Origin: a virus
Length of the DNA: 36,340 nucleotides
Direction: 5' to 3' (one strand)
IMG/VR virus record: IMGVR_UViG_3300017710_000017
Span: 1 to 36,340 of that record
Part shown: positions 1,421-24,971 of the stretch, piece by piece
Position numbering within the stretch: position 1 is the first letter of the stretch
Layout of the letters: each line of letters begins with the position of its first letter
Made by a program: the position numbers and the translations under genes
Notes under the pieces: model-generated
Databases searched by the model: none
Told to the model about the DNA's origin: nothing
The model's input: only the letters and a program-made list of their open reading frames with translations

Positions 1421-2914
1421 ATGGCAGTAAATTTGACACCAGGATTTGACTTGCAGCCAAGTGCGCAGCAAACTCCACTATCAACAAACTACATAAACAA
1501 CTTTGATTTCTTGAATCAGTACCTACCGGATACTTACGAAAAGGAATTTGAGCGTTATGGAAACAGATCAGTAGCATCATTCTTAAGAATGGTAGGCGCT
1601 GAAATGCCTTCTAACTCTGACCTTATTAAATGGGCTGAGCAAGGAAGATTACACACTAAATATCAAAACTGTACTTCAGCATCAGCATTAAATGCTGTTG
1701 ACGGCGTATGGACTATTCCAGGAGTTGGAGTAGCGCCAGGCGCAGGAGCGAACAACCCAGCTAACTTTAACCCACAGTTAAATGCTAACTCTGGAATTTT
1801 AGCTTCACTGAGAGTTGGACAAACAGTTATGATTTCAGACAATACACCAGGTTCTACTTTACAAAACAAAGCAATTGTAAAAGTAGCTCCAACATCAGCT
1901 AACCCAGGTACTTTTACAGTAGCATATTACGAAGCAACAGGTCAAGCTATGGTAGCAGCAACATCATGTGATATATTTATCTATGGTTCTGAATTTGCAA
2001 AAGGAACTAATGGAATGGTAGGATCTAACGAGGCTGATGACTTTATTTTTGACAACAAGCCAATTATTATCAAAGACAAATACACTGTTTCTGGTTCTGA
2101 TATGGCTCAGATTGGATGGATTGAAGTTACAGGTGAGGATGGCGTAAGCGGATACCTATGGTATTTAAAGTCTGAACACGACACAAGATTAAGATTTGAA
2201 GATTACTTAGAAACAGCGATGGTTGAGGCAGTTCCTGCTGAAGCGGCATCAGGTGCAGCAGACTTCCTACAAGGAGTAGGAGTAGGTGCAGGTGTAGCTA
2301 ACCTTTCTGGTTCTGATGGTATTTTCTTTAGCGTATCAACAAGAGGAAATGTATTCGGTGGTGGAAACCCAGTTGCATTAGCTCAATTTGATAATGTTAT
2401 TCAAAGACTTGATAAGCAAGGAGCTATTGAAGAAAATGTAATTTTCGTAAACAGACAATTCTCGTTTGACATTGACGATATGTTAGCATCACAAAACTCT
2501 TACGGAGCAGGTGGTACTTCTTATGGTTTATTTGACAACGATAAGGACATGGCTCTTAATTTAGGATTTACAGGATTCCGTAGAGGATATGACTTTTATA
2601 AGTCTGACTGGAAATACTTAAACGACCCAACAATGCGTGGAGGTCTTGAAGCAGGTGCAATCAATGGACTTTTAGTTCCAGCTGGTTCTACAACTGTATA
2701 CGACCAAATTTTAGGTAAGAACGCTAAGCGACCTTTCCTTCATGTTCGTTACAGAGCTTCTGAGACTGAAGACAGACGTTACAAAACTTGGATTACCGGT
2801 TCTGCTGGTGGTGCAAGAACTAATGATCTTGATGCAATGGAGGTTAACTTCTTGAGCGAAAGAGCTGTATGTACTTTAGGTGCAAACAACTTCTTCTTAT
2901 TTCAAGATGCATAA
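1421..2914 (+). CDS. Major capsid protein
   Basis: The protein has 497 residues, with an N-terminal segment typical of podoviral and crAss-like capsid proteins (residues 25-85, including FERYGNRSVASFLRMVG and a KWAEQGRLH motif). Codon use is biased to few codons and A-rich spacing precedes the start, both consistent with high expression. Residues about 90-192 form a Gly/Ala/Thr-rich beta segment with an RVGQTVMISD core that looks like an inserted domain. After it come capsid-like stretches, including a C-terminal arginine-rich strand (HVRYRASETEDRRYKTW). An HK97-type fold is expected from the family but cannot be shown from sequence alone. The gene follows the scaffold-like gene and is closed by a hairpin terminator. 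Confidence 0.88.
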   Translation: MAVNLTPGFDLQPSAQQTPLSTNYINNFDFLNQYLPDTYEKEFERYGNRSVASFLRMVGAEMPSNSDLIKWAEQGRLHTKYQNCTSASALNAVDGVWTIPGVGVAPGAGANNPANFNPQLNANSGILASLRVGQTVMISDNTPGSTLQNKAIVKVAPTSANPGTFTVAYYEATGQAMVAATSCDIFIYGSEFAKGTNGMVGSNEADDFIFDNKPIIIKDKYTVSGSDMAQIGWIEVTGEDGVSGYLWYLKSEHDTRLRFEDYLETAMVEAVPAEAASGAADFLQGVGVGAGVANLSGSDGIFFSVSTRGNVFGGGNPVALAQFDNVIQRLDKQGAIEENVIFVNRQFSFDIDDMLASQNSYGAGGTSYGLFDNDKDMALNLGFTGFRRGYDFYKSDWKYLNDPTMRGGLEAGAINGLLVPAGSTTVYDQILGKNAKRPFLHVRYRASETEDRRYKTWITGSAGGARTNDLDAMEVNFLSERAVCTLGANNFFLFQDA

Positions 2915-2931
2915 CAATTAGTAGTATTAAT

Positions 2932-2957
2932 TAGGGGGATTAACTTCCCCCTTTTTA
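2932..2957 (+). terminator. Rho-independent terminator after the capsid gene
   Basis: A 7-bp stem, AGGGGGA pairing with TCCCCCT, encloses a 6-base loop and is followed by a run of T. It lies 17 bases after the capsid stop codon. It would end or attenuate the abundant capsid transcript before the next gene, for which no separate promoter box is seen, so partial read-through is likely. Confidence 0.8.
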
Positions 2958-2986
2958 TTTTTTAAATCAAATTAAATTATATTATA

Positions 2987-3751
2987 ATGAAAAATCAAAA
3001 AAAAACTTACCAGAATAAAGCCTATAGACTTTTAAAAGACCATCAGCCACTATCTTATATGTTGGCTTCTAGACATTCATCTAGATCTCCTTTACTATAC
3101 TTTGATGAAGAACAAGGAATAAACAGACCCTTACGATATGCGAGAAATCAAAAAAGCCCGTTTGAAGACGAGCAAGATGGAAACGCTATATTAGAGCCAA
3201 TAGTTTTTGAAGATGGAATGTTATTGGTAGAAAAACAAAATCAATCTTTACAGCAATTTCTACATTATCATCCAAGCAATGGAATGGTGTTTGAAGAAAT
3301 TAATTCTGAAAGAGATGCGGCTCAAGAACTTGAGTGGGTTGAGGCAGAGCTTGAGGCTCAGCTTGAAGCTAAAGCAATAACTAAAGATGTTCAAAAATTG
3401 ACTTCGGTATGCCGAGTGTTGATGGGTAATGGAGTTGATAAAATGACTATACCTGAATTAAAAAGAGACATCTTGCTTTATGCTAAATCTAGACCAGAGG
3501 ATTTTATGGATACCATAAATGATCCAATGTTAGAATTAATGGATACTGTCCATCAGTTTTTTATGGCAGGCTTTATATCTTACAGAAACGCAAACAAAGA
3601 TGTATATTACAACTTACCTAATAATAAGAAAAAAATGCTAACCATTCCTTATGGAGAAGACCCTAATTATATAATAGGTTCTTTCATGCAGTCGGATGAA
3701 GGTTTAGAAGTTTTTAAATTATTAAAAAATAAGTTAAAAAATAAAAAGTAA
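2987..3751 (+). CDS. Conserved head-region protein of unknown function
   Basis: The protein is 254 residues and soluble, with no membrane segment. The N-terminal third is basic (residues 1-35). A middle segment has LQQFLHYHPSNGMVFEEI around residues 87-104, and an acidic Glu/Ala-rich helix follows at about 112-131 (EWVEAELEAQLEAK). The C-terminal part, residues 150-250, is helical. I do not recognise a named family. Its place between the capsid gene and the small decoration-like genes suggests a head or head-completion role; this is inference. It lies between two terminators (2932 and 3773), so its own expression probably depends on read-through from the capsid transcript. Confidence 0.75.
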   Translation: MKNQKKTYQNKAYRLLKDHQPLSYMLASRHSSRSPLLYFDEEQGINRPLRYARNQKSPFEDEQDGNAILEPIVFEDGMLLVEKQNQSLQQFLHYHPSNGMVFEEINSERDAAQELEWVEAELEAQLEAKAITKDVQKLTSVCRVLMGNGVDKMTIPELKRDILLYAKSRPEDFMDTINDPMLELMDTVHQFFMAGFISYRNANKDVYYNLPNNKKKMLTIPYGEDPNYIIGSFMQSDEGLEVFKLLKNKLKNKK

Positions 3752-3772
3752 AACTTAACCAACTATAAATTA

Positions 3773-3799
3773 GCTGCCCAAAAGGGCGGCTTTTTTTTT
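3773..3799 (+). terminator. Rho-independent terminator
   Basis: GCTGCCC pairs with GGGCGGC (one T-G wobble) around a 4-base A loop and is followed by nine T. It ends the 254-residue gene's transcript and directly abuts the promoter box that starts at 3802. Confidence 0.88.
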
Positions 3800-3801
3800 A
3801 G

Positions 3802-3809
3802 TATCTTTG
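3802..3809 (+). promoter_or_regulatory. Bacteroidetes-type -7 promoter element (TATCTTTG)
   Basis: TATCTTTG matches TAnnTTTG exactly and lies two bases after the T-run of the preceding terminator and 30 bases before the next ATG. The same ten-base string TATCTTTGTA recurs at 4733. No -33 TTG is evident; that position is occupied by the terminator stem. Confidence 0.7.
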
Positions 3810-3839
3810 TACTTTATTAACTCATAAATTATTATTATT

Positions 3840-4121
3840 ATGGAAAAATTCTTACAAATTCCAGTTACAAATGAACAAAAACAAATTTTGTCAATTCTGG
3901 ATGTTAAATTAGTAGAACAAGCTTCTACTTCTACGGTTTCTTTGTCTTATGGCTCAGGAAAAGTTGCAACTATAACCTATACTGATGCTTTAGACGCAGG
4001 AGTAGAGACTTATAGAGATGAAGTTCAAAATGCTATCGTTAAAGCTCTTGCGACAGGGTGGACTAATGTGGCTGTGGACTACATTCCAAGCAATGCCGTT
4101 ACTGGTATATCTATAGCCTAA
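3840..4121 (+). CDS. Small virion-associated protein, paralogue of the next gene
   Basis: This 93-residue protein is beta-rich and begins MEKFLQIPV. It aligns along its whole length with the next gene product if that protein's inserted domain (about 75-80 residues) is removed: MEKFLQIPV with MQKYVEVPV, then the shared pattern of a beta half and a helix (VETYRDEVQNAIVKALATGW with DEAMRDGFEDSITESLLQHW). Small size, own promoter, own downstream terminator and a place among head/connector genes suggest a virion decoration or minor structural protein. That role is inferred. The start follows an AT-rich leader after the box at 3802. Confidence 0.75.
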   Translation: MEKFLQIPVTNEQKQILSILDVKLVEQASTSTVSLSYGSGKVATITYTDALDAGVETYRDEVQNAIVKALATGWTNVAVDYIPSNAVTGISIA

Positions 4122-4132
4122 TGTATAGTGCT

Positions 4133-4675
4133 ATGCAAAAGTATGTTGAAGTTCCAGTACAAAAATCAGTCGCAAGTGGAACGACAACAGTAGACGAATC
4201 AGGAAACCTTGAGCTACAGGATGGCGCTGCTACTTTTACAGGTGGCGTAGTTAATGTTGGCGATGTAGTGCATGATACTTCAGATGACAGAATGTATACT
4301 GTCGCAAGTGTTGTGGACGCAAACACACTCTCTTTAGTTGCTATTGGAGCAGCGCAAGGAAATGGTGTAGGTACTGGTAAAAATTATATTATCTATTCAG
4401 CTACAGTATCTTCTAAGCAATTAGTTGCTACTAACGGAGTAGTAGTTGTAGAAAATGCATCTGCTGACCCAATAAATAGTGAAGTTAATGTTCAGTATTG
4501 TGGGCCATCAGGCATCGTAATTAAAATTACTCATGCAGCAGTAGCAGCAGGTGATGAGGCTATGAGAGATGGATTTGAAGATTCAATAACAGAATCTTTA
4601 CTACAACATTGGCCTTATGTTAAATATGACGAATGGTTGCCTTCAAGTTTAATCTTAGATATTGCTAAAGTCTAA
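4133..4675 (+). CDS. Small virion-associated protein with inserted beta-rich domain
   Basis: This 180-residue protein is a paralogue of the preceding 93-residue gene product. The start at 4133 is chosen because MQKYVEVPV then aligns with the neighbour's MEKFLQIPV. An upstream ATG at 4121, coupled as TAATG to the previous stop, would add four residues and cannot be excluded. Residues about 12-90 are an insertion absent from the paralogue, with a GGVVNVGDVV core, a VASVVDANTLSLV strand pair and a GTGKNYIIYS end. Similar modules occur in the capsid protein and two other virion proteins here. The C-terminal 85 residues match the paralogue. It is probably a decoration or minor structural protein; the function is inferred. 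Confidence 0.75.
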   Translation: MQKYVEVPVQKSVASGTTTVDESGNLELQDGAATFTGGVVNVGDVVHDTSDDRMYTVASVVDANTLSLVAIGAAQGNGVGTGKNYIIYSATVSSKQLVATNGVVVVENASADPINSEVNVQYCGPSGIVIKITHAAVAAGDEAMRDGFEDSITESLLQHWPYVKYDEWLPSSLILDIAKV

Positions 4676-4696
4676 GACTAACTAATCAAAACTAAG

Positions 4697-4730
4697 AGAG
4701 GCTACAAAAAAAAGTAGCCTCTTTTTTTTT
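4697..4730 (+). terminator. Rho-independent terminator
   Basis: A perfect 9-bp stem, AGAGGCTAC with GTAGCCTCT, encloses an 8-A loop and is followed by nine T. It closes the two-gene paralogue unit and directly precedes the promoter box at 4733. Confidence 0.92.
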
Positions 4731-4732
4731 GC

Positions 4733-4740
4733 TATCTTTG
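4733..4740 (+). promoter_or_regulatory. Bacteroidetes-type -7 promoter element (TATCTTTG)
   Basis: TATCTTTG stands two bases after the T-run of the terminator and 15 bases before the start of the connector gene. Context and sequence copy the arrangement at 3773-3809. It likely drives the long tail unit that starts at 4756. Confidence 0.7.
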
Positions 4741-4755
4741 TAAAAAGAAGAAATT

Positions 4756-5727
4756 ATGCCTATTAATGATGTAAGAAATACCGTATTGGCAATCGCCAAC
4801 AAAAACAATTATGGATATATTTCGCCTCAAGATTTTAATCTCTACGCTAAGCAAGCTCAGCTTGATATGTTTGAGAATTATTTCTACCAATACAATAGTC
4901 AATTAACGCAAGAAAATATGCGTCAATCTGGCTCTGGATATGCGGATATAACAAAAGGAATAATAGAAGTTATAGATAGTTTTTCTGCTACTCAAGCCTT
5001 GATTAACAATGGCGTTAATTTATATTCTTTACCATCAAATTATTATTTAATAAATAAAATTAATTATTATCCAACTACAACTGCTACCGGAACAACTACT
5101 CAATCACAAGCATTTACTTTAACTGATGCTAACGCTACTTTTTTAACTACTGTATCGGTTGGGCAACTTGTATCTTCTACATCAGCCACTAGCGTAACAG
5201 CTGGTCAAAGTGCTTATGTGGTAAGCATAAATTCTGATACTCAGTTAGCTATTTCTGTTGATATATTTGGTTCAGCAGCTACAATTGGAAACTCTTATGT
5301 TGTTGTGTCAAGCGCTGGAATTGTAGAAGTAGAGAGAGTCACACAAAGTAAAATATTTTATCTCAACTCATCTCCACTAACCACACCATCATTAGGTTTT
5401 CCCGCTTATGTTTTAGGAAATGCAACAGTTGGGGCATTAGGAAATTCTATTAATGTATATCCAGAAACCATAACCACTCCTGGTCAAATATACTCTCAGT
5501 ACTTGAGATATCCCCTTGACCCTAACTGGACATATGCAACATTACAAGCGGGAGAGCCTTTATTTGATCCTACGCAGGCAGATTTTCAAGATTTTGAATT
5601 ACCCTTGTCAGATGAACCTACCTTGGTTTACAGAATATGTCAATTTATAGGAATTGAAATAAGAGAAGCAGATGTATACAATTTTGGAAAAGAGCAACTA
5701 GCAATGGAAAACATTGACGAACAATAA
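4756..5727 (+). CDS. Connector/ring-like tail protein
   Basis: The protein has 323 residues. Its N-terminal 75 residues are helical (MPINDVRNTVLAIANKNNYG, then DFNLYAKQAQLDMFENYF) and resemble the start of head-to-tail ring proteins in crAss-like and marine Bacteroidetes phages. Residues about 107-186 are a Thr/Ser/Ala-rich beta insertion with TTVSVGQLVS, a VSINSDTQLAISVDIF strand pair and an IGNSYVVVS end. The C-terminal part (residues 200-323) is again connector-like, ending in an acidic helix. It is followed 10 bases later by a second protein of similar type and then the tail stabilization protein, the expected order for ring, ring, muzzle. The family assignment is from remembered family pattern and context. 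Confidence 0.7.
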   Translation: MPINDVRNTVLAIANKNNYGYISPQDFNLYAKQAQLDMFENYFYQYNSQLTQENMRQSGSGYADITKGIIEVIDSFSATQALINNGVNLYSLPSNYYLINKINYYPTTTATGTTTQSQAFTLTDANATFLTTVSVGQLVSSTSATSVTAGQSAYVVSINSDTQLAISVDIFGSAATIGNSYVVVSSAGIVEVERVTQSKIFYLNSSPLTTPSLGFPAYVLGNATVGALGNSINVYPETITTPGQIYSQYLRYPLDPNWTYATLQAGEPLFDPTQADFQDFELPLSDEPTLVYRICQFIGIEIREADVYNFGKEQLAMENIDEQ

Positions 5728-5737
5728 AAAATAAATT

Positions 5738-6661
5738 ATGACTTATATTACAGATTATGCATATTACGAAAATTCAGGCACAGCTCCTACGGATTCAAAT
5801 TGGGGGTCGTACCAATATATTTCATTGAATGATATAGTTAATAATTTTATGTTAATGTATCAAGGAAACCACGAACTAATAAACAATATAGAAAGATATC
5901 AAGTTTTGTTTCATGCAAAAAGAGGAATACAAGAGCTAAATTATGACGCTATGAAGGAAATTAAAATTCTTCAATTAGATGTGTCAAATCAGTTACGCTT
6001 TATTTTGCCTCAAGACTATGTTAATTGGGTTCGTATATCTCAATTTGTGAATGGAATCTTACAACCATTAACTGAAAATATTCAAACTAATTGGAGTTCT
6101 GCCTATCTTCAGGACAACGACTCTAATATATTGTTTGACCAAGATGGAAATGTTTTAAGACCGCAGGATTCAGAGCTAGACTTGAATCAAATGTCGACAA
6201 CTGCTAGAAGTATATATTTAAACGAGAACAGCCCATACCATGGACAGGAAGGGTGTTGTATAGACGGGTGTTGGTACTTTGATTATGCTGTTGGTTCTAG
6301 GTTTGGATTAAACACAGAAACAGCAAATTCAAACCCTACATTTACTATTAACAAGCAAGGCGGAGTAATAAACTTTAGCAATATGATTGGTGGATCTTCA
6401 GTAGTTTTAGAATATGTTTCAGATGGTATGGAGAATGGAACAGATGGAGCAATTAATCTTAATAAATTATTTGAAGAATATATTTATGCTTACATTAAAT
6501 ATTCTATATTAAACGGAAGAATAGGTGTAACAGAATATGTGATTAATAGAGCAAGAAAAGATAAATCATCTTTGCTTAGAAATGCAAAAATTAGATTAAG
6601 CAATATACATCCTGGCCGATTATTAATGAATATGAGAGGACAGAATAAATGGATAAAATAA
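5738..6661 (+). CDS. Second connector/ring-like tail protein
   Basis: The protein has 307 residues. An N-terminal region with YISLNDIVNNFMLMYQGN and a helix FHAKRGIQELNYDAMKEIK (residues 67-85) leads to a beta stretch and IRF-like RFILPQDYVNWVRIS (residues 91-105), a pattern common in tail-tube/ring proteins of Bacteroidetes podoviruses. A Cys-rich EGCCIDGCWYF motif lies near residues 171-181. The C-terminal helices (EEYIYAYIKYSILNGRIGV and an Arg/Lys-rich end) resemble the shared tail of this group. It lies between the first connector-like gene and the large tail protein with very short gaps, so it is almost certainly cotranscribed. The exact place in the tail is inferred. Confidence 0.7.
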   Translation: MTYITDYAYYENSGTAPTDSNWGSYQYISLNDIVNNFMLMYQGNHELINNIERYQVLFHAKRGIQELNYDAMKEIKILQLDVSNQLRFILPQDYVNWVRISQFVNGILQPLTENIQTNWSSAYLQDNDSNILFDQDGNVLRPQDSELDLNQMSTTARSIYLNENSPYHGQEGCCIDGCWYFDYAVGSRFGLNTETANSNPTFTINKQGGVINFSNMIGGSSVVLEYVSDGMENGTDGAINLNKLFEEYIYAYIKYSILNGRIGVTEYVINRARKDKSSLLRNAKIRLSNIHPGRLLMNMRGQNKWIK

Positions 6662-6662
6662 T

Positions 6663-9600
6663 ATGCCAATAACTACTACAAATTTTGTGGCTGGAAGAAT
6701 GAATAAGTCTATTGACGAAAGACTTCTTCCGCCAGGAGAATACATAGACGCAATGAATGTCCGTTTAGGGGCTACTGAAACAACTGAGATTGGTGCGGTA
6801 GAAAACTCTAAAGGAAATGACCAGCTAACAACTTTGCAATTTCAAGGACAAGCGTTATCATCTGCGGCGCAGTGCATAGGCGCTTATGAGGATGGTCAAA
6901 GAGAAACCATTTACTGGTTTGTCCATGATAGTAATAATCCTGTAAAAACAGGAAAATTAGATTTGATAGTTTCTTTTAATACTACAAATTTAATTGTTCA
7001 ATATCATGTGATTTCTACTACTGTTTTAAATTTTGACCCGGAGTTTTTAATTACCGGTATTGATTTGGTAGATGGAAAATTTTTATATTTTACTGATGAC
7101 AAAAATCCTCCTCGAGTCATAGATGTGGTTCAGAGTTATCCTTATCCTATAGGGTTGGTTGATCAAATAGAAGAAGAGGATATAAGTGTTATTTTAAAAC
7201 CCCCTGGATTTGAAGACGCTGTTGGCTCAAATATTCCTTTGTCTGTCCCTGGCGTACAGCTAGTTAGTTTGCCAGGGCAAGAAAACTACATAAGAGAAAG
7301 ATTTATATGTTTTGCTTATAGGTATCGATATTTAAACGGCGGCTATAGCGCAACATCTCTTTTTACTGTTCCAGCCTTTGCTACATCTGATTTTGCATTT
7401 GACACTAGAAACTACTTAAACAGTGGTATGATTAACAGGTTTAATGGGGCTGTTATAACTTTTAGTACTGGAAGCAAAAGAGTTACTGAAATTGATTTGT
7501 TGTATAAAGACACAAACTCTAATGTTATCTATGTAATTGAAAGATTTAAAAAAGAAGATTATGGATGGGCTGATGATACTCAGAAAACATATACTTTTAC
7601 AAACAGCAAAATTTATACGGTAATAGGTAATGACGAGCTTTTAAGGCTTTATGACAATGTTCCTAGGATTGCAAAGGCTCAAACAATAATGGGCAATAGG
7701 TTGTTATATGGTAATTATGTAGATGGATACAATTTTACTAGAGGGTCGGCTGAAGGCTCAAACATATCTTTAGATTATAACACGAGCTATTTACCCCTTA
7801 GCGTAGAGTTTCTTGAATTACCAGGAGGACTACCAGGTAATGGAGATGCTTACACTTTATCTGGATCATCGGTAAGTATAACAAATTCTAAAATAACTAT
7901 TGATTTAGCAGAAATAGACGGAAAGTTAAAACAAGGCGCTGCGTTAGGTTTTAATTTTAGAATAGAACACGCTGAATTAGGCGGGGACACCGCTTTAGCT
8001 CCTTGCGGAACGGCAAATGATGAGTTTACTAATGGTGTTTTTGATATTCAGTTTAGTGTAACGCTAGACCAAGACTACCAAAACTCTTATGACTTTTTAT
8101 CTTCTTCTTTGTTTTTAGACGCAATAGGTACAGGGATTTTGGCTGACGGGAGATTTAACCCTTTGGCTACAGCTGATGCAGGAACTTCATTTACAGATTT
8201 ATTTAATAATTTTTTAAGCTCCCCTACAACTACTTGTACTTTTACCAAGTTTAATAGTAGTATAACAGACGCAACAGCTCAACAAGGTATTGCGTTGACA
8301 GGGGTTTCACCAGGTAGCACCACTTTTGAATTGCAAATTTTAGCAATGAATTTTCAAAATGTGGATCAAACTCAAACTCCTCCTGTTACCACAAACCTAT
8401 ATGAGTATTTTAGATTTGTACTGGGGGAAATACAGTTCACATCAGATATAGATACATCCAGTCTTCACAGTAACAGGGATTATGAAACAGGAATTGTTTA
8501 CATGGACGAGTACGCTAGAGCCTCTACGGTTTTGGTATCGGAATACAATACAGTTTATATAAATCCAGCCGACTCTGTGAATGCAAATAAAATTCAAGTT
8601 CAACTAAGCAGTACAGCTCCTTATTGGGCTAGCAAATATAAATTTGTAGTAAAGCCTAGTTTAGGGGAGTATAACACTGTTTTTAGTAATTTTTATTATG
8701 TTAGGCCTTCTGATAATATGATATTTTTTAAGATAGAAGGAGACAATGCCAATAAAGTTACAAAAGGGGAGACTTTAATAGTAAAGGCGGATGTAGACGG
8801 GCCTTTGTCAGTTGTGGAAAAATGCGAGGTATTAGATATAACAGCTGAAAGTAGTGATTTTTTAGACCAAGAAGAGGGTTTTACAGACGGGAAACAATTA
8901 GCGGGCCTATATATGCAAATTAAAAATCAGAATTTTAATGTTGTAATACCGGATGATTCTGTTATAGCATATGGAAAGCAAGAAGCTAGAAGCGGAAGTA
9001 CAAGCGGATGTAGCCAACAGGCATTTAGAAATGTTGGATACCCATGTTTTACAACAGACCCTGATACCGGGGCTACTACAAACTATGATATACCCGGAGG
9101 CTCAATTATAAGGTGGAGTATTACAAGCGGAAGACGAGCAGGCTCAAGAAGTTGTGAGCAAAAAAGATGGGAGTGGAGCGCTTCTTTTGTCGCTACAAGA
9201 GATTACGCTGATTTAAAAAGATGGTATGATGGCGATAATATAAATATAAATACTGCTGAGCCAGGGGGGTATGAAGGGTGGAATGAAGACGACAACATTG
9301 CTAATTATAACTCTCAATATTTTACTCCTAGTACGCCTATTAATCTTGGCCCTTTTATAGGAGGCAATCCTTTTGGATTTGCAACCAATTTACCCTGTTT
9401 AGGTTTTAGCGCTCAATTAGGGTTTTGTCAAGCAATTCCTGGAGATCCTAGTTCGCCATTATATTTTGGTACTGCTACTGGATTAAAAGGTTGTAACAGA
9501 ATTGGTAATAACAGAAAAGCTGGTGTAACAATGGATATAGTTGTTTTTAGGGCTAACACCTTAATGGTTTTTGAAACCGAACCTGAAGATGCAAACGCCG

Positions 9601-11477
9601 AACTTTACTTTGATGCTAGTGAAATGTATGATATAGATTCAAGTGGATTTCACCAATCAGGAACAGATATAGATAACGGAGACCAAAACCAAACAGCAAC
9701 TCAAGATGCTGTTATAACATTAAACTTTAGTGACTGTTACACCTTTGGTAATGGTGTAGAAAGCTACAGAATAAAAGATCAGCTGGCTGCAAAAAGTATG
9801 CAGTTAGGTGAAAGAACCTTAGCTGTATCTAACCAAGACTACAAAGAAGCTGATAGATTTGAAGGTATTACTTATAGTGGAGTTTTTAGTAGTAACTCTG
9901 GGACAAACAATCTAAATGAATTTAATTTAGGGTTAGTTAATTTTAAAGATTGCGAAACTTCGTTTGGGCCTATTCAGGTGCTACACGCCAGAAAAACAGA
10001 TATTTTAACTTTACAAGAAGATAGAATAACTTATGTTTTTGCTGGTAAAAATATTCTTACTGATGCTGTTGGCGGAGGTGTTGTAACTTCAGTTCCAGAG
10101 GTTTTAGGAGAACAAGTTGCTAGAATTGAAGAATATGGCATAAGTTTTAATCCTGAAAGTTTTGTTGCTTATGGTTACGATATGTATTTTACCGACACAA
10201 AAAGAGGTGCAGTACTTCAATTAAGCGGAAGAACCCCCGATACGGATAGGTTGACAGTGGTATCTGACCAAGGTATGCGTTCTTGGTTTAGAGATAGGTT
10301 TTTTGAAAATTTAAACACTCAAAAACTAGGTGGCTATGACCCTTATATGGATGAGTATGTTTTAGGTATGAACGGAACACCTGTTCCTATACCTCCACTT
10401 GTTATTAGTTGTGGAACTCAAATAAATAGAACAGGGCTTGCCGCTGGAACTAGTACAGTTAGTACGGTTGATTTTGGACAAGTAATTGGCGATGTGGTGT
10501 TTCCTTATTCTATTTCGAGTGGGTCTATTGTAATCAGTGTTTTATGGAATGGAACTACAACCACAAGTGGAACACTTACTGGGTCTGGAAACTTTACATG
10601 GAACAAAAGCCTTAACACTCCTGTTAATGCGGTTGTAACTATTACAGCTCAAACCGCTGCGTCTTTCTTTGTAACGCTATCTTGCCCTACTCAAGAAACC
10701 ATTACGGTTGTTAAGGTGGCTATTGCATCAACTCAAGATTCAAACAAATTTATTCATGCTGAATATTTCTGGGAAGATACTGTAAATATAAGCCCAGTAG
10801 ACAGCGATCAAGTTCAATTTTTAAATTCCCCACTTACAGCTTCGTTTTATGATGCTCAGGTAGGAATTAGGTCTTTAGGTGTTTTTCCTTATACAGGGGT
10901 CGACTTAACAATAAGGTCTAATAAAATAAACTTTGATGATTATGATTGGGGATACCCAGACGATAATTTTAAATATTTATCATCAAACACATTATATGCA
11001 AACACTCAGCCTGACATAGCATCTTTATTGGCTGCGGCAACAACTATACCTAATAGTAGTGTGGTAAGCCCATCAACTGGACTTTATCAAGCAACTGTAA
11101 CTAACTTGTCTTTACCAAGTGGGAATCAGTATTTATATTTAATATATGATTACAGAAAAACTTCTTGTCAGCAATTTTGTTATGACGCAACCAGCCCGGA
11201 AGATGCCTGTTGTTTATGTGAAATTCCATGTGTGGCGTTTAGTTGCAGCACACTGCAGAACAACCCTACTATAATTTGTAATCAACCTCTAACTCAAACT
11301 TATTACCACACTGGGTCTGGAACATTCCCAGCAGTAGGTGACTTTGTTTATAGTTCGACTAATTGCTTCAGCAGTACAGCTGTACCTTTAATTTCGGGAT
11401 ATTACAAATCAGAAACCAATAAATATATTAGATGTTCCTCAAACGGAATAGTAACAGAATTAGTAACTTGTACTTAA
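6663..11477 (+). CDS. Large tail stabilization (muzzle-like) protein
   Basis: The protein has 1604 residues. The N-terminus, FVAGRMNKSIDERLLPPGEY followed by DAMNVRLGATE, is the hallmark of the stabilization/tail-muzzle proteins of crAss-like and related phages. The bulk is beta-rich with long segments such as VFAGKNILTDAVGGG near residue 1130. Residues about 1245-1350 form a Thr/Ser/Gly-rich beta-sandwich-like (Ig-like) segment. The last 60 residues are a Cys-containing module (VGDFVY, GYYKSETNKYIRC, NGIVTELVTC) that also occurs in the next gene. At this size it is presumably the main tail barrel with added adhesive domains. It is coupled to the ring-like gene by a 1-base gap. The family call rests on the N-terminal motif; domain borders are estimates. 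Confidence 0.78.
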   Translation: MPITTTNFVAGRMNKSIDERLLPPGEYIDAMNVRLGATETTEIGAVENSKGNDQLTTLQFQGQALSSAAQCIGAYEDGQRETIYWFVHDSNNPVKTGKLDLIVSFNTTNLIVQYHVISTTVLNFDPEFLITGIDLVDGKFLYFTDDKNPPRVIDVVQSYPYPIGLVDQIEEEDISVILKPPGFEDAVGSNIPLSVPGVQLVSLPGQENYIRERFICFAYRYRYLNGGYSATSLFTVPAFATSDFAFDTRNYLNSGMINRFNGAVITFSTGSKRVTEIDLLYKDTNSNVIYVIERFKKEDYGWADDTQKTYTFTNSKIYTVIGNDELLRLYDNVPRIAKAQTIMGNRLLYGNYVDGYNFTRGSAEGSNISLDYNTSYLPLSVEFLELPGGLPGNGDAYTLSGSSVSITNSKITIDLAEIDGKLKQGAALGFNFRIEHAELGGDTALAPCGTANDEFTNGVFDIQFSVTLDQDYQNSYDFLSSSLFLDAIGTGILADGRFNPLATADAGTSFTDLFNNFLSSPTTTCTFTKFNSSITDATAQQGIALTGVSPGSTTFELQILAMNFQNVDQTQTPPVTTNLYEYFRFVLGEIQFTSDIDTSSLHSNRDYETGIVYMDEYARASTVLVSEYNTVYINPADSVNANKIQVQLSSTAPYWASKYKFVVKPSLGEYNTVFSNFYYVRPSDNMIFFKIEGDNANKVTKGETLIVKADVDGPLSVVEKCEVLDITAESSDFLDQEEGFTDGKQLAGLYMQIKNQNFNVVIPDDSVIAYGKQEARSGSTSGCSQQAFRNVGYPCFTTDPDTGATTNYDIPGGSIIRWSITSGRRAGSRSCEQKRWEWSASFVATRDYADLKRWYDGDNININTAEPGGYEGWNEDDNIANYNSQYFTPSTPINLGPFIGGNPFGFATNLPCLGFSAQLGFCQAIPGDPSSPLYFGTATGLKGCNRIGNNRKAGVTMDIVVFRANTLMVFETEPEDANAELYFDASEMYDIDSSGFHQSGTDIDNGDQNQTATQDAVITLNFSDCYTFGNGVESYRIKDQLAAKSMQLGERTLAVSNQDYKEADRFEGITYSGVFSSNSGTNNLNEFNLGLVNFKDCETSFGPIQVLHARKTDILTLQEDRITYVFAGKNILTDAVGGGVVTSVPEVLGEQVARIEEYGISFNPESFVAYGYDMYFTDTKRGAVLQLSGRTPDTDRLTVVSDQGMRSWFRDRFFENLNTQKLGGYDPYMDEYVLGMNGTPVPIPPLVISCGTQINRTGLAAGTSTVSTVDFGQVIGDVVFPYSISSGSIVISVLWNGTTTTSGTLTGSGNFTWNKSLNTPVNAVVTITAQTAASFFVTLSCPTQETITVVKVAIASTQDSNKFIHAEYFWEDTVNISPVDSDQVQFLNSPLTASFYDAQVGIRSLGVFPYTGVDLTIRSNKINFDDYDWGYPDDNFKYLSSNTLYANTQPDIASLLAAATTIPNSSVVSPSTGLYQATVTNLSLPSGNQYLYLIYDYRKTSCQQFCYDATSPEDACCLCEIPCVAFSCSTLQNNPTIICNQPLTQTYYHTGSGTFPAVGDFVYSSTNCFSSTAVPLISGYYKSETNKYIRCSSNGIVTELVTCT

Positions 11478-11487
11478 AATTTAATTT

Positions 11488-12507
11488 ATGGCAACAATAC
11501 AAACTCTTTGTTTTGATGGAGATACATTTGCACAAGCTTATGCATTATACACCAGTAGCGACTTAACAACACTAGCACCAGACGGATATTATAGTCAGGG
11601 GCAAATTGTTAGGCAACAGCTAAATGGTATACTACTTAATGCACAGCCTTGTTCGGCGTGTTTAGTTCCTTGTGGCTCTGGCTTAAATTTAAATATTAGC
11701 AATAGTGGAATTTTTAGCGTAGACATTGATGTGGCTAATGATGTTGGCGCGGTAGTTGTTTATTTTTACATGGGAGCTAGTATACCAGATGGAGTGGATA
11801 TGGTATGGAACGGAACTCACTATAACAGGTTAACTTGTCAAGGTAATGACGGAACTATTATCTTGGACGGCGCTGGAACTTCAGTAGATTATGCTGGATT
11901 CAATAATCAAGGTACAGGATTACCTACATATGTAGGAAATCAAAATGCTAACCTAATAAATTTCAGCCCTTATGATGGAACTGAGGTTTGCCCAACAAAC
12001 GGCGGCGCTCCATCAAACTTTTTATATGTTTCAGGTGCTTTTGTTGACCAAGGCACTACAACAAATACAAATGTGGTTAATAACCAAGTGGGTACTGTGG
12101 CAGCTACCAGCCCTTTGTTTACATTGGTTTTACCAAAAAACTCTGTTACCCCCACATCCTTAAATCTTCAAATTTTCGCACCTTTGTGCGGGACTCTTTG
12201 GAGACTTGAATTAGCGTGTCCAGTTGCGTTGCCTAGTTTTTTAGGTTCTCCCGCACAGACAGGCTTGGGTTGTTCTAACGCAACTGTAACATATTATTTT
12301 GCAAGAAACGCAACAGGAACTCAATTACCTTTTACTGTTGATACCAACACAAGGCCAGTTGTAGGTAATTTTGTTTTTACAGATTCTTCCGGAGCAACAT
12401 ATTTAAATGACACTGCTACACAGCAACGCTATGTCATGGATAACAATCAGGTCATTACTGTTAGAAACGGTGTTGTAATTAATGTTACATCTTGTGACCC
12501 AACTTAA
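11488..12507 (+). CDS. Adhesin-like tail protein (candidate receptor-binding protein)
   Basis: The protein has 339 residues and is beta-rich. Residues about 12-57 are a short module (SSDLTTLAPDGYYSQGQIV, NGILLNAQPC). A middle beta domain follows at about 60-250, with VGAVVVYFYMGASIPDGVDM and paired Cys residues, of a kind I associate with tail proteins of flavobacterial phages. Residues 266-339 repeat the terminal module (VVGNFVFTD, QRYVMDN, NGVVINVTSC). The same module closes the preceding tail protein. Cys residues recur at module ends and could form disulfides or a metal site. Its place after the tail barrel and its adhesive-type architecture suggest a receptor-binding or tail-fibre role; that is inference. 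Confidence 0.65.
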   Translation: MATIQTLCFDGDTFAQAYALYTSSDLTTLAPDGYYSQGQIVRQQLNGILLNAQPCSACLVPCGSGLNLNISNSGIFSVDIDVANDVGAVVVYFYMGASIPDGVDMVWNGTHYNRLTCQGNDGTIILDGAGTSVDYAGFNNQGTGLPTYVGNQNANLINFSPYDGTEVCPTNGGAPSNFLYVSGAFVDQGTTTNTNVVNNQVGTVAATSPLFTLVLPKNSVTPTSLNLQIFAPLCGTLWRLELACPVALPSFLGSPAQTGLGCSNATVTYYFARNATGTQLPFTVDTNTRPVVGNFVFTDSSGATYLNDTATQQRYVMDNNQVITVRNGVVINVTSCDPT

Positions 12508-12517
12508 AAAATAAACT

Positions 12518-13357
12518 ATGGCATCAGAATACACTTTATCGTACAACCAAGACTCAGCACCGCTAACCATTGACGCTCAAGGAAAGGGTGGGTGGCCTTC
12601 ATTTTATTCTTTTTTTCCTGAATATATGATAGGAATGAATAGTTATTTTTATTCTTTTAGTGGTGGCAATCTTTTTAGGCACAACACCAATGAGTCTCGA
12701 AACACTTACTATGGTCAATTTAGTCCATCTACAATTACAAGTGTATTTAATCCAGAGCCAACATTAAGTATCAAGCTCTTTAAAACTTTATCATACGAGT
12801 CAAATACTACAGTAGTAGATACCACTCAAGCGAGATGGGCATGTACTGAACTGGCTACAGATATAACGGATGGAACACCAGGTGGTATGCTTGAAACTTA
12901 TTTTGAGCAAAAAGAAGGAGAGTGGTTTAGCTTTATACGAACTAATGCAGCTGTGATAAACTGGCAAATGAGATCTGCCAATGGTTTAGGTTCTGCTACT
13001 GGAGTTACTGTAGTGGGTGCTGCAACTACTATAGATTTTGCTGTGCCAACAGGCTCAATAATATCCATAGGTGACTTCGTGTATTTTGTTACTTTAGCTG
13101 GAACACCTCCAACAGCTACAGGCGCTCCTCAGCTCGCCGGAATAGTTACAGCTATCAATGCCAATAGCATCGTTATAGACAACTCAACAGGGGTAGCAAC
13201 ACCTGTTGTGGGGCAATTTATTATGTACATAAAAAACGCTACGGCAGAATCGCATGGGGCTAGAGGTTATTTTCTTCAATTTAAATTAGAAAATGACTCA
13301 ACTAGCCCAGTAGAACTATTTTCAGTCGGGAGTAGTGTGATGAAAAGCAATCCATAG
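12518..13357 (+). CDS. Conserved tail structural protein with internal beta insertion
   Basis: The protein has 279 residues. The N-terminal 95 residues carry a pattern I recognise from structural proteins of crAss-like and other Bacteroidetes phages: GGWPSFYSFFPEYMIGMN, then FYSFSGGNLFRHN and a KLFKTLSYES end. Residues 105-150 include FEQKEGEWFSFIR. Residues about 158-240 form a beta-rich segment with IISIGDFVYF, an AGIVTAINANSIVIDNST strand pair and VVGQFIMYIKN, similar to modules in three other virion proteins here. The C-terminal 40 residues return to the conserved fold (RGYFLQFKLEN). It is the last gene before the promoter box at 13366. No enzymatic motif is seen; the precise tail location is unknown. 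Confidence 0.72.
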   Translation: MASEYTLSYNQDSAPLTIDAQGKGGWPSFYSFFPEYMIGMNSYFYSFSGGNLFRHNTNESRNTYYGQFSPSTITSVFNPEPTLSIKLFKTLSYESNTTVVDTTQARWACTELATDITDGTPGGMLETYFEQKEGEWFSFIRTNAAVINWQMRSANGLGSATGVTVVGAATTIDFAVPTGSIISIGDFVYFVTLAGTPPTATGAPQLAGIVTAINANSIVIDNSTGVATPVVGQFIMYIKNATAESHGARGYFLQFKLENDSTSPVELFSVGSSVMKSNP

Positions 13358-24006: not shown

Positions 24007-24251
24007 TGAATAGTTTTAACCAACATAAATGTATGATGAACAGTTATAAGATATTAACTGGGAAAGAGACTTTCCATCAAATGCTAGATAGGGATGAGGA
24101 GGTTCACTTTGTTTTTAATCCAACAATTCCAGTTGTGCCTATGGAAGACGGGGTTTATGATTATGTTAGGGAGTATTTTGAAAAATTAGAAGACTACAGC
24201 AAGTGTGCTGAAATTCATTGGGCAAAATGCAAGGCCCTTCACTTAATTTAA
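24006..24251 (+). CDS. Small conserved hypothetical protein at the end of the virion operon
   Basis: The protein has 81 residues. Its start overlaps the previous stop as TAATG; an alternative ATG at 24033 would give a 72-residue form beginning MMNSYKILTG. The visible pattern is HFVFNPTIPVVP, then an acidic helix YVREYFEKLEDYSKCAEIHW. I know no function for it. It is the last + strand gene and its 3' end overlaps the end of the oppositely transcribed phosphoesterase gene by 9 bases, with no terminator between them. Confidence 0.65.
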   Translation: MNSFNQHKCMMNSYKILTGKETFHQMLDRDEEVHFVFNPTIPVVPMEDGVYDYVREYFEKLEDYSKCAEIHWAKCKALHLI

Positions 24252-24971
24252 ATCCATCATGCAGTTTATAGCTGTATGCCCACCTATAACTACACCACAA
24301 GCTATAGCTTGTTTTTTAAAGTTGCGAGCGTAAGCTGCTGCATAACTTTTAGCATCAACGCCGCAGCCAATCTGCATTCCAAAAACTCGAAACTTTTTAC
24401 CCACAAACCAATGAACGTATGACTCAGTATGAGTATGCCCACATACACTAGACATCATATTGTTTTTTGCCTTAGTCTTTGCTTGACCACCTTCTCCATG
24501 CTCGTAAAGAACATTGTCGTAAACTATGGTTTCAATCCAATTCCACTTAGGTGTACCCAACACATCATTATAAGACTTAATCCAAGCTGAAGGCACACCA
24601 CCGGTCATAGCCTTCCTTGCAGCCATACGGTCATGATTTCCGATTAAAACATCTGCTACCGGGAAAGCTCTGTACCATTTTTTTACAAACTTTTTAGCTA
24701 GCTTAAGCTCATTCCCCGCCGAAAGCCCAGACGGATCTGGCTCATGGTATGAAAATGCGTGATTATCTAAAATGTCTCCAATGTAAATTACTTGATTACA
24801 ATTAAACTTAGCGTAAACTTCCTGGCAATGTTCTAGGTATCCCTCTAAAGTAAAAGGAGCGTGAAGATCTCCTATTACGAGTATCCTTCGCTCCTTTTTA
24901 TTTAAATTCTCAAACGCTTTGCGCTTGTTACCTGATAGCCTTGGTCTTATTTCGTCAAAATTATACTTCAT
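24243..24971 (-). CDS. Calcineurin-like metallophosphoesterase
   Basis: The protein has 242 residues with the full set of metallophosphoesterase motifs: GDLH (residues 34-37), GDILDNH (65-71), GNHD (111-114), an HGEGG motif with His158, and GHTH (178-181). These residues bind two metal ions and cleave phosphoesters in nucleic acids, nucleotides or phosphoproteins. The substrate cannot be told from sequence. It is the last gene of the - strand replication operon, overlaps its upstream neighbour's end by 11 bases, and converges with the + strand operon. Phage homologues are thought to act in nucleic-acid processing or in host interference; here the role is open. Confidence 0.88.
   Translation of the reverse strand: MKYNFDEIRPRLSGNKRKAFENLNKKERRILVIGDLHAPFTLEGYLEHCQEVYAKFNCNQVIYIGDILDNHAFSYHEPDPSGLSAGNELKLAKKFVKKWYRAFPVADVLIGNHDRMAARKAMTGGVPSAWIKSYNDVLGTPKWNWIETIVYDNVLYEHGEGGQAKTKAKNNMMSSVCGHTHTESYVHWFVGKKFRVFGMQIGCGVDAKSYAAAYARNFKKQAIACGVVIGGHTAINCMMDLN

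Follow-up and report, generated by a model that had tools for sequence, protein, structure and literature searches.

A crAss-like virion gene block with two inserted copies of one domain

We analyzed a 36,340-nucleotide stretch of DNA from an uncultured crAss-like phage (IMG/VR virus record IMGVR_UViG_3300017710_000017; "the window" hereafter means this whole stretch), which holds a crAss-like virion gene block encoding a capsid protein, ring-like proteins, a muzzle and a separate muzzle C-terminal protein. The capsid open reading frame (ORF; 1421-2914) belongs to phrog_13704, and the annotation of its Cellulophaga phage Calle_1 relative reads 'structural protein /major capsid protein'. The muzzle protein matches PF25731 with 29 bits against a cut-off of 27. 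Annotated relatives come from Flavobacterium elemo phages, Cellulophaga phages, Maribacter phage Panino, Tenacibaculum phage Gundel_1 and the Manatee Spring contig MW202828, and suggest a host among the Flavobacteriia. An earlier note on this DNA had proposed that similar beta-rich segments recur in four virion proteins. Their four core motifs lie where that note placed them: RVGQTVMISD in the capsid protein, NVGDVVHDT in a 184-amino-acid (aa) protein (4121-4675, plus strand), SVGQLVSST in a ring-like protein of 323 aa (4756-5727, plus strand) and SIGDFVYF in a tail protein (12518-13357, plus strand). We find that the segments in the 184-aa and ring-like proteins are copies of a single domain, here named module A, while those in the capsid and tail proteins are fixed and not securely related to it.

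Module A copy 1 (4160-4405, plus strand; aa 14-95) sits in the 184-aa protein, which has the core of its neighbor, a 93-aa paralogue (3840-4121, plus strand) that carries no module and provides an empty site for comparison. The two proteins align on both sides of the segment, the larger one having some 82 additional residues after the common N-terminal strand; the insertion is therefore as clean as had been proposed. Copy 2 (5065-5325, plus strand; aa 104-190) lies in the ring-like protein (phrog_14543, virion structural protein) and accounts for about 85 extra residues without counterpart in the homologues of six annotated relatives. As judged from these alignments, both copies in the window are clean insertions.

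When compared as profiles, the two inserts align over 75 columns with an hhalign probability of 98.2 (E = 5.2e-14). With a hidden Markov model (HMM) built from ring modules only, the window's 184-aa protein was recovered at E = 1.8e-8; so were 32 of the 33 proteins of this type, all four muzzle copies and the proteins of loci L049 and L109 (L numbers denote loci of this study), but not the capsid or muzzle C-terminal protein of the window. The reverse HMM, built from 184-aa modules, found 55 of 128 ring-like proteins, but not the window's own. D22 never varies in 41 modules taken from different contexts, and at least 90% of them have F27, as also holds for G34 and Y79. These comparisons show the 184-aa and ring-like segments to be copies of one domain of approximately 80-90 residues. 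The similarity proposed for four segments thus holds firmly for this pair, and the suggested HMM search bears it out and extends it to muzzles, whereas the capsid and tail segments are not secure homologues. The two clean HMMs replaced an early model of the 184-aa protein, which matched ring-like proteins at about 1e-32 and was discarded because its phmmer seed (E 1e-3) possibly held ring-like proteins. Joined matches of 790 nucleotides that had been taken for tandem modules were also rejected, as they were the 93-aa neighbor joined to the match.

Module A is present or absent among close relatives

Ring-like proteins were found at 239 loci, loci on the same contig included, and were complete at 212. 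Of the complete proteins, 118 carry the module and 94 do not (100 and 76 distinct sequences, respectively). On a quick capsid tree (114 of 202 loci after thinning), module presence requires 11 changes by parsimony, at least five of them forced by well-supported branches, compared to 37 when labels were shuffled. Loci L179 and L197 share 91% DNA identity across 3.7 kb upstream and 86% across 1.5 kb downstream, but the module is found in L197 and not in L179. The residues flanking the module differ as well, which points to local recombination; the pair can be explained by local replacement of the gene instead of by insertion of the module on its own. Over the 6903 pairs among the 118 proteins, mean identity is 0.37 in the module and 0.66 and 0.55 in the host core, a divergence that indels within the module possibly exaggerate.

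The same pattern of occupied and empty sites is found in other proteins. The muzzles of L086, L105 and L106 carry module A at a clean site relative to the window and six other relatives; the empty site in the window's muzzle is at 9665-9666 (plus strand; alignment H.SG^...DQNQT). A 262-aa protein of L049 has the module and eight homologues of 174-181 aa lack it; likewise, the spike base of MW202828 (156 aa) has it and the 88-aa gp41 of an elemo phage does not. When 88 module rows were placed in a tree, every non-ring context with more than one row forms a single group and the ring rows need three changes. The copy in the 262-aa protein of L049 is closest to the ring copies of that phage and of L050 (45/87 identities; next 36/83) and is placed beside the same-phage ring copy with support of 100/92, although its long branch (1.18) and odd composition speak against relying on this placement. 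It is likely, from these sequence comparisons, that the module was copied here between proteins inside one phage lineage.

Host proteins and distribution

The proteins that carry module A are diverse. Besides the muzzles mentioned above, the muzzle of L119 has a copy. Spike bases (Rcc01079 family, NF048002) are hosts in MW202828 and in viral contigs; above the NF048002 cut-off of 28 were the 156-aa protein of L109 (52.2 bits), the module-free elemo gp41 (66.9), L373 (41.2) and L326 (38.5), and below it were L295 (26.4 bits) and L317 (23.4). A baseplate-wedge-like protein (phrog_219, E = 2.1e-14) has three module copies, which points to the module occurring in contractile-tailed phages too. In this phrog_219 protein (L375:208-2199) the modules form a C-terminal array that is preceded by short partial repeats of the module start. 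For the 262-aa host in L049, the tail-fibre match is weak (E = 0.049). The name given to the ring-like host in the window (4756-5727) comes from gene order and a weak profile match to gp34 of crAss001 (probability 13.8, E = 0.002); its profile had no match to crAss001 gp35, gp40 or gp43 (probability at most 0.33) and found no ring protein in the PDB, and the assignment as a ring protein is tentative.

Arrays of two or three copies make up 25 of the 134 module ORFs. The two-copy proteins of L030 and L010 keep the core of the 93-aa type (E = 1.7e-6 and 0.0019), but for three-copy proteins of 316-321 aa the comparison to the 93-aa type was not significant, the best three-copy protein being that of L300 (402 aa, E = 0.016). 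The 93-aa-type family also occurs as neighboring paralogous genes of which one has two modules (L010:4911-6284 and L030:2780-3942).

We searched for the module beyond these phages with a motif scan of viral contigs. At least 120 loci, selected by one motif and of which 80 were tabulated, were found, and 112 of these 120 encode the module by HMM (the 134 ORFs above). In the stretch examined, 41 of the 112 have no capsid or ring-like protein of this phage family, but as fragments they may still belong to phages with such proteins. The same motif found 16 loci in bacterial and archaeal genomes, none encoding the module at E 0.01, and no bacterial genome matched a longer motif, which itself matches only 32 of the 417 loci of this study. 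As far as a single motif can show, this suggests that module A is mainly a viral domain. With the low-complexity filter on, tblastn of single modules against a phage collection gave no match for three modules and eight records for a fourth (best E = 0.1; MW202828 and cyanophage P-SSM3). Among seven annotated records, the module profile matched MW202828 (E = 4e-20) and found nothing in five; a match in Gundel_1 (E = 0.001) contains three internal stops and is not trusted.

Predicted fold and family matches

AlphaFold2, run with a 45-row alignment, modeled the 184-aa protein with a mean predicted local distance difference test score (pLDDT) of 87.3 and placed the module between two long strands (residues 8-21 and 88-103). 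By ten-residue blocks, pLDDT in this copy is 88-96, apart from two blocks at 76 and 84. The best PDB match of residues 17-97 or so is the capsid chain of Vibrio phage VP1 (64-146; Z = 8.3, root-mean-square deviation (rmsd) 2.5, 75 aligned), followed, among others, by the C-terminal domain of a tailspike (Z = 7.9), the lambda tail-tip protein (490-567; Z = 7.1) and barrels of the F1/V1-ATPase N-terminal type (Z = 6-7), with values below 8 liable to reflect a common arrangement. The module is thus predicted to be a small beta-barrel. No crAss001 chain appears by title among the 50 PDB matches listed, an absence that proves nothing. Among predicted viral structures, 11 models matched at E ≤ 0.001; the best, a 174-residue protein, spans both domains of the 184-aa protein (E = 8e-14), and the best matches over both domains reach TM scores of 0.84-0.88.

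Matches to known families are few. In Pfam, no family matched more than one of 41 modules at E 0.1; seven families had one member each, none of them immunoglobulin (Ig)-like or BACON, with DUF4577 the best (E = 0.0012). Neither did NCBIfam have a match over the module in ten contig proteins and the window's 184-aa and ring-like proteins. In PHROGs, three of the 41 modules have weak matches to phrog_1980, a tail-fibre family (best E = 5.4e-5), and a single module matches phrog_283, a major-head-protein family (E = 0.003), so that parts of families of these two kinds may hold the module. Against PDB sequences the best match of the module profile is the peptidoglycan hydrolase PcsB (E = 9.6e-4, 52 profile positions), an unproven relationship; an F2-pyocin side fibre (E = 0.09) is among the weaker ones. 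No paper listed in our literature searches was seen to describe module A, which appears to be a poorly catalogued domain, as yet without a curated entry.

The capsid and muzzle C-terminal segments are fixed

The other two segments behave differently. The capsid segment (1793-1996, plus strand; aa 125-192) is kept, with at least 59 residues, in 217 of 217 capsid proteins in which both flanks aligned. The tail segment (12980-13237, plus strand; aa 155-240) lies in a crassvirus muzzle C-terminal domain protein (ORF 12518-13357; PF25729, E = 1.4e-11, 45.1 bits against a cut-off of 27), outside the Pfam stretch, which covers aa 60-142; it is kept, with at least 68 residues, in 67 of 67 proteins. 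These counts include the window and were drawn from 266 capsid ORFs and 76 short muzzle C-terminal ORFs, the remainder of which had no alignable flank; 11 fused long muzzle proteins were excluded. Since they are present in all judged proteins, the two segments are not recent insertions. They are integral to conserved homologues, and the proposal that all four segments are recent copies is ruled out.

In the capsid protein gp32 of crAss001, a beta-barrel is inserted in the E-loop (the I-domain, residues 79-180) and is widespread in crassviruses, as stated in the available part of the published account (PMC10172136). The window's capsid segment (about aa 91-192) is at the equivalent position and is probably an E-loop I-domain as well, though by sequence the window capsid did not match gp32 (probability 1.3). 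Profiles of the capsid, ring-like and second ring proteins, together with two single proteins, found no convincing relative in the PDB. In the AlphaFold2 model of the muzzle C-terminal protein, residues 154-240 or so alone are confident (pLDDT blocks of 80-95 for 161-240; poor elsewhere, mean 52.6). This segment matches V1/F1-ATPase barrels (Z = 7-8.2) and the lambda tail tip (Z = 7.0-7.2), which would place it in the same fold class as the 184-aa module. For two of the four segments, the structural comparison suggested in the earlier note thus agrees with a shared fold class, but Z scores below 8 possibly reflect only a common arrangement.

The sequence similarity of these segments to module A is weak. 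On close alignments, hhalign gave probabilities below 4 for both. With wider alignments, windows holding most of the muzzle C-terminal segment reached 38-58. For the capsid segment deeper alignments gave 6-10, all 225 distinct proteins 15 and one 77-member clade 36, the same clade scoring about 11 or less in windows clear of the segment. Of 146 non-self windows compared to the module profile, the top three were two from the muzzle C-terminal protein and one from the capsid (probabilities of 17, 14 and 8). The module HMM was run on 9010 module-free ORFs, 272 of which are capsid proteins, and 17 of its 20 top matches were capsid proteins, each hit within the capsid segment at a domain E of 4.5e-4 to 0.2, but the 17 are mutually related and not independent. 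The only match of the ring-only HMM beyond the module groups was the capsid protein of L190, again in the capsid segment (E = 8e-4). These weak similarities fall in the register that had been proposed. Three controls weigh against relatedness: when windows were slid along the proteins, the score of the capsid window (20.0) was only slightly above that of the next one (18.0); when the capsid segment was compared to 133 windows, the top ones were muzzle windows (aa 476-625) outside any module; and with the muzzle C-terminal segment as query, a muzzle N-terminal window (20.1) scored nearly as well as the capsid (20.7) and the ring (20.5). Because the matched capsids are close relatives and the capsid query favors unrelated muzzle windows, we regard the similarity of the capsid segment, and likewise that of the muzzle C-terminal segment, as suggestive only. 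Both would be fixed barrels of a similar kind that are now core structure, possibly ancient relatives of module A. The earlier idea of a portable barrel in virion proteins is sound, and applies to more kinds of host protein than had been thought, but the capsid and tail-tip segments are not instances of it.

Other features of the window

The muzzle C-terminal domain has an ORF of its own in the window, L109 and L113; in L110 it lies within a separate 320-aa ORF, whereas L111, L112 and L114 have it fused to their long muzzle protein. A second, different repeat is found at the C-termini of the muzzle (11220-11474) and of a 339-aa protein (12250-12504), the two copies matching with a probability of 98.7 (E = 2.2e-16). 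It is bounded by cysteines, has a VGdFVy-like strand and occurs in 2, 3 or 5 copies in proteins of relatives. On the minus strand, the product of 27778-30189 matches BT4734-like_N and DUF5906 above cut-off and weakly a primase C-terminal family, and is probably a primase-helicase. ORF 24243-24971 (minus strand) has a GD.H / GNHD / GH.H pattern, which we take to be metallophosphoesterase-like.

A proposed portable accessory barrel and its alternatives

On balance we favor the interpretation that module A is a portable accessory barrel, exposed on the virion, interchangeable between proteins and probably serving weak multivalent adhesion. The sequences show the module to be present or absent at clean sites among close relatives and to be exchanged by local recombination. 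Its first and last strands are predicted to continue into the host protein, which would allow it to be spliced into a beta-hairpin with the host fold unbroken. From there it may project from the tail barrel, the base of a head spike, the muzzle or a small head or neck protein, and could provide weak multivalent contact with polysaccharide or other surfaces, in the manner proposed for Ig-like and BACON domains of other phages. Three published observations lead us to favor an exposed, weakly adhesive barrel, each as given in the accessible part of its source: spike bases of RcGTA, located at the surface of the capsid, bear the head fibres by which RcGTA attaches to the polysaccharide capsule (PMC7296036); the crassvirus muzzle forms the tip of the tail, and the insertions by which it varies can alter surface properties (PMC10172136); and Ig-like domain proteins of gut phages conferred epithelial binding when displayed on another phage (PMC13370021). 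Several points weigh on the other side. Exposure is judged from the type of host protein, and the outward position in the 323-aa host depends on the ring assignment, while adhesion is suggested by context. The carbohydrate-binding family CBM_X2 matched 1 of 41 modules at a non-significant E of 0.044, and in ten further proteins Pfam had no match over the module, CBM_X2 and Ig-like or BACON families included, so no carbohydrate-binding family is supported. The top Foldseek matches are phage endosialidases, of which that of phi92 (E = 7e-4) superposes poorly (rmsd 14.7).

The main rival to the adhesive accessory role is a structural spacer, in which the module acts as cement that widens or stabilizes the tail barrel and head vertices. 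Several of its hosts (ring-like, muzzle and 93-aa type) do resemble assembly proteins rather than fibres, and the crassvirus capsid I-domain, also a beta-barrel, is described in the accessible part of PMC10172136 as adding wall thickness and stability. An essential structural part would not be expected, however, to change its presence repeatedly in one capsid clade or to diverge faster than the host core, as module A does, and we consider this explanation unlikely. Its patchy presence, rapid divergence and many hosts would suit a neutral hitch-hiker, a short, self-folding module spread by recombination with no selected function; yet D22 is invariant, the other three residues are widely kept in the 41 modules and the module is in frame in all 118 complete ring-like proteins that have it, which makes neutrality improbable.

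Two further alternatives concern the relationships among the segments. That all four are one module which spread recently within this phage draws on the weak, in-register resemblance that the capsid and tail segments bear to module A and on the fold class shared by the 184-aa module and the tail segment. Their presence in every judged protein contradicts a recent event, and the low probabilities on close alignments and the muzzle windows outside modules preferred by the capsid query further reduce this reading to a slim chance. Conversely, the 184-aa and ring modules could be unrelated and alike by chance or convergence, given that the fold matches are common small barrels and that the 184-aa HMM misses the window's own ring-like protein. 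This is contradicted by the profile match over 75 columns and by the near-complete recovery of 184-aa-type proteins with the ring-only HMM, and is hardly credible. A wider version of the accessory-barrel interpretation, in which module A has been shuffled for adhesion among head spikes, rings, muzzles and baseplates and the capsid I-domain and muzzle C-terminal barrel are ancient fixed copies of it, is doubtful.

The coming and going of module A among close relatives provides natural pairs with and without it (e.g., L179/L197) for testing such domains, and a family model would allow annotation of unnamed phage proteins such as the motif-selected ORFs described above.

Comparison with known systems

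Portable accessory domains on virions are known mainly as Ig-like and BACON domains. In tailed phages, crAss-like ones included, these domains resemble module A in being small, all-beta, portable and located on virion proteins. Module A differs in that it has no such Pfam match, its best PDB matches are small barrels, and it sits inside ring-like, muzzle and spike-base proteins. It is another small barrel, inserted in head-spike bases and also in ring-like and muzzle proteins. Like module A, the I-domain of crAss001 gp32 is a small beta-barrel inserted in a core virion protein, but the equivalent segment in the window is fixed, not mobile, and not securely homologous to the module. The spike base of RcGTA is described as a jellyroll, and the available part of that description (PMC7296036) does not mention an inserted barrel such as that of the module-bearing versions; the elemo spike base, which has no module, differs from that of MW202828 in the same way. 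Finally, fragment shuffling among phage proteins has been reported (PMC10684548), whereas here a single module recurs in ring-like, muzzle and head-associated proteins, and phages that are nearly identical can differ in whether they have it.

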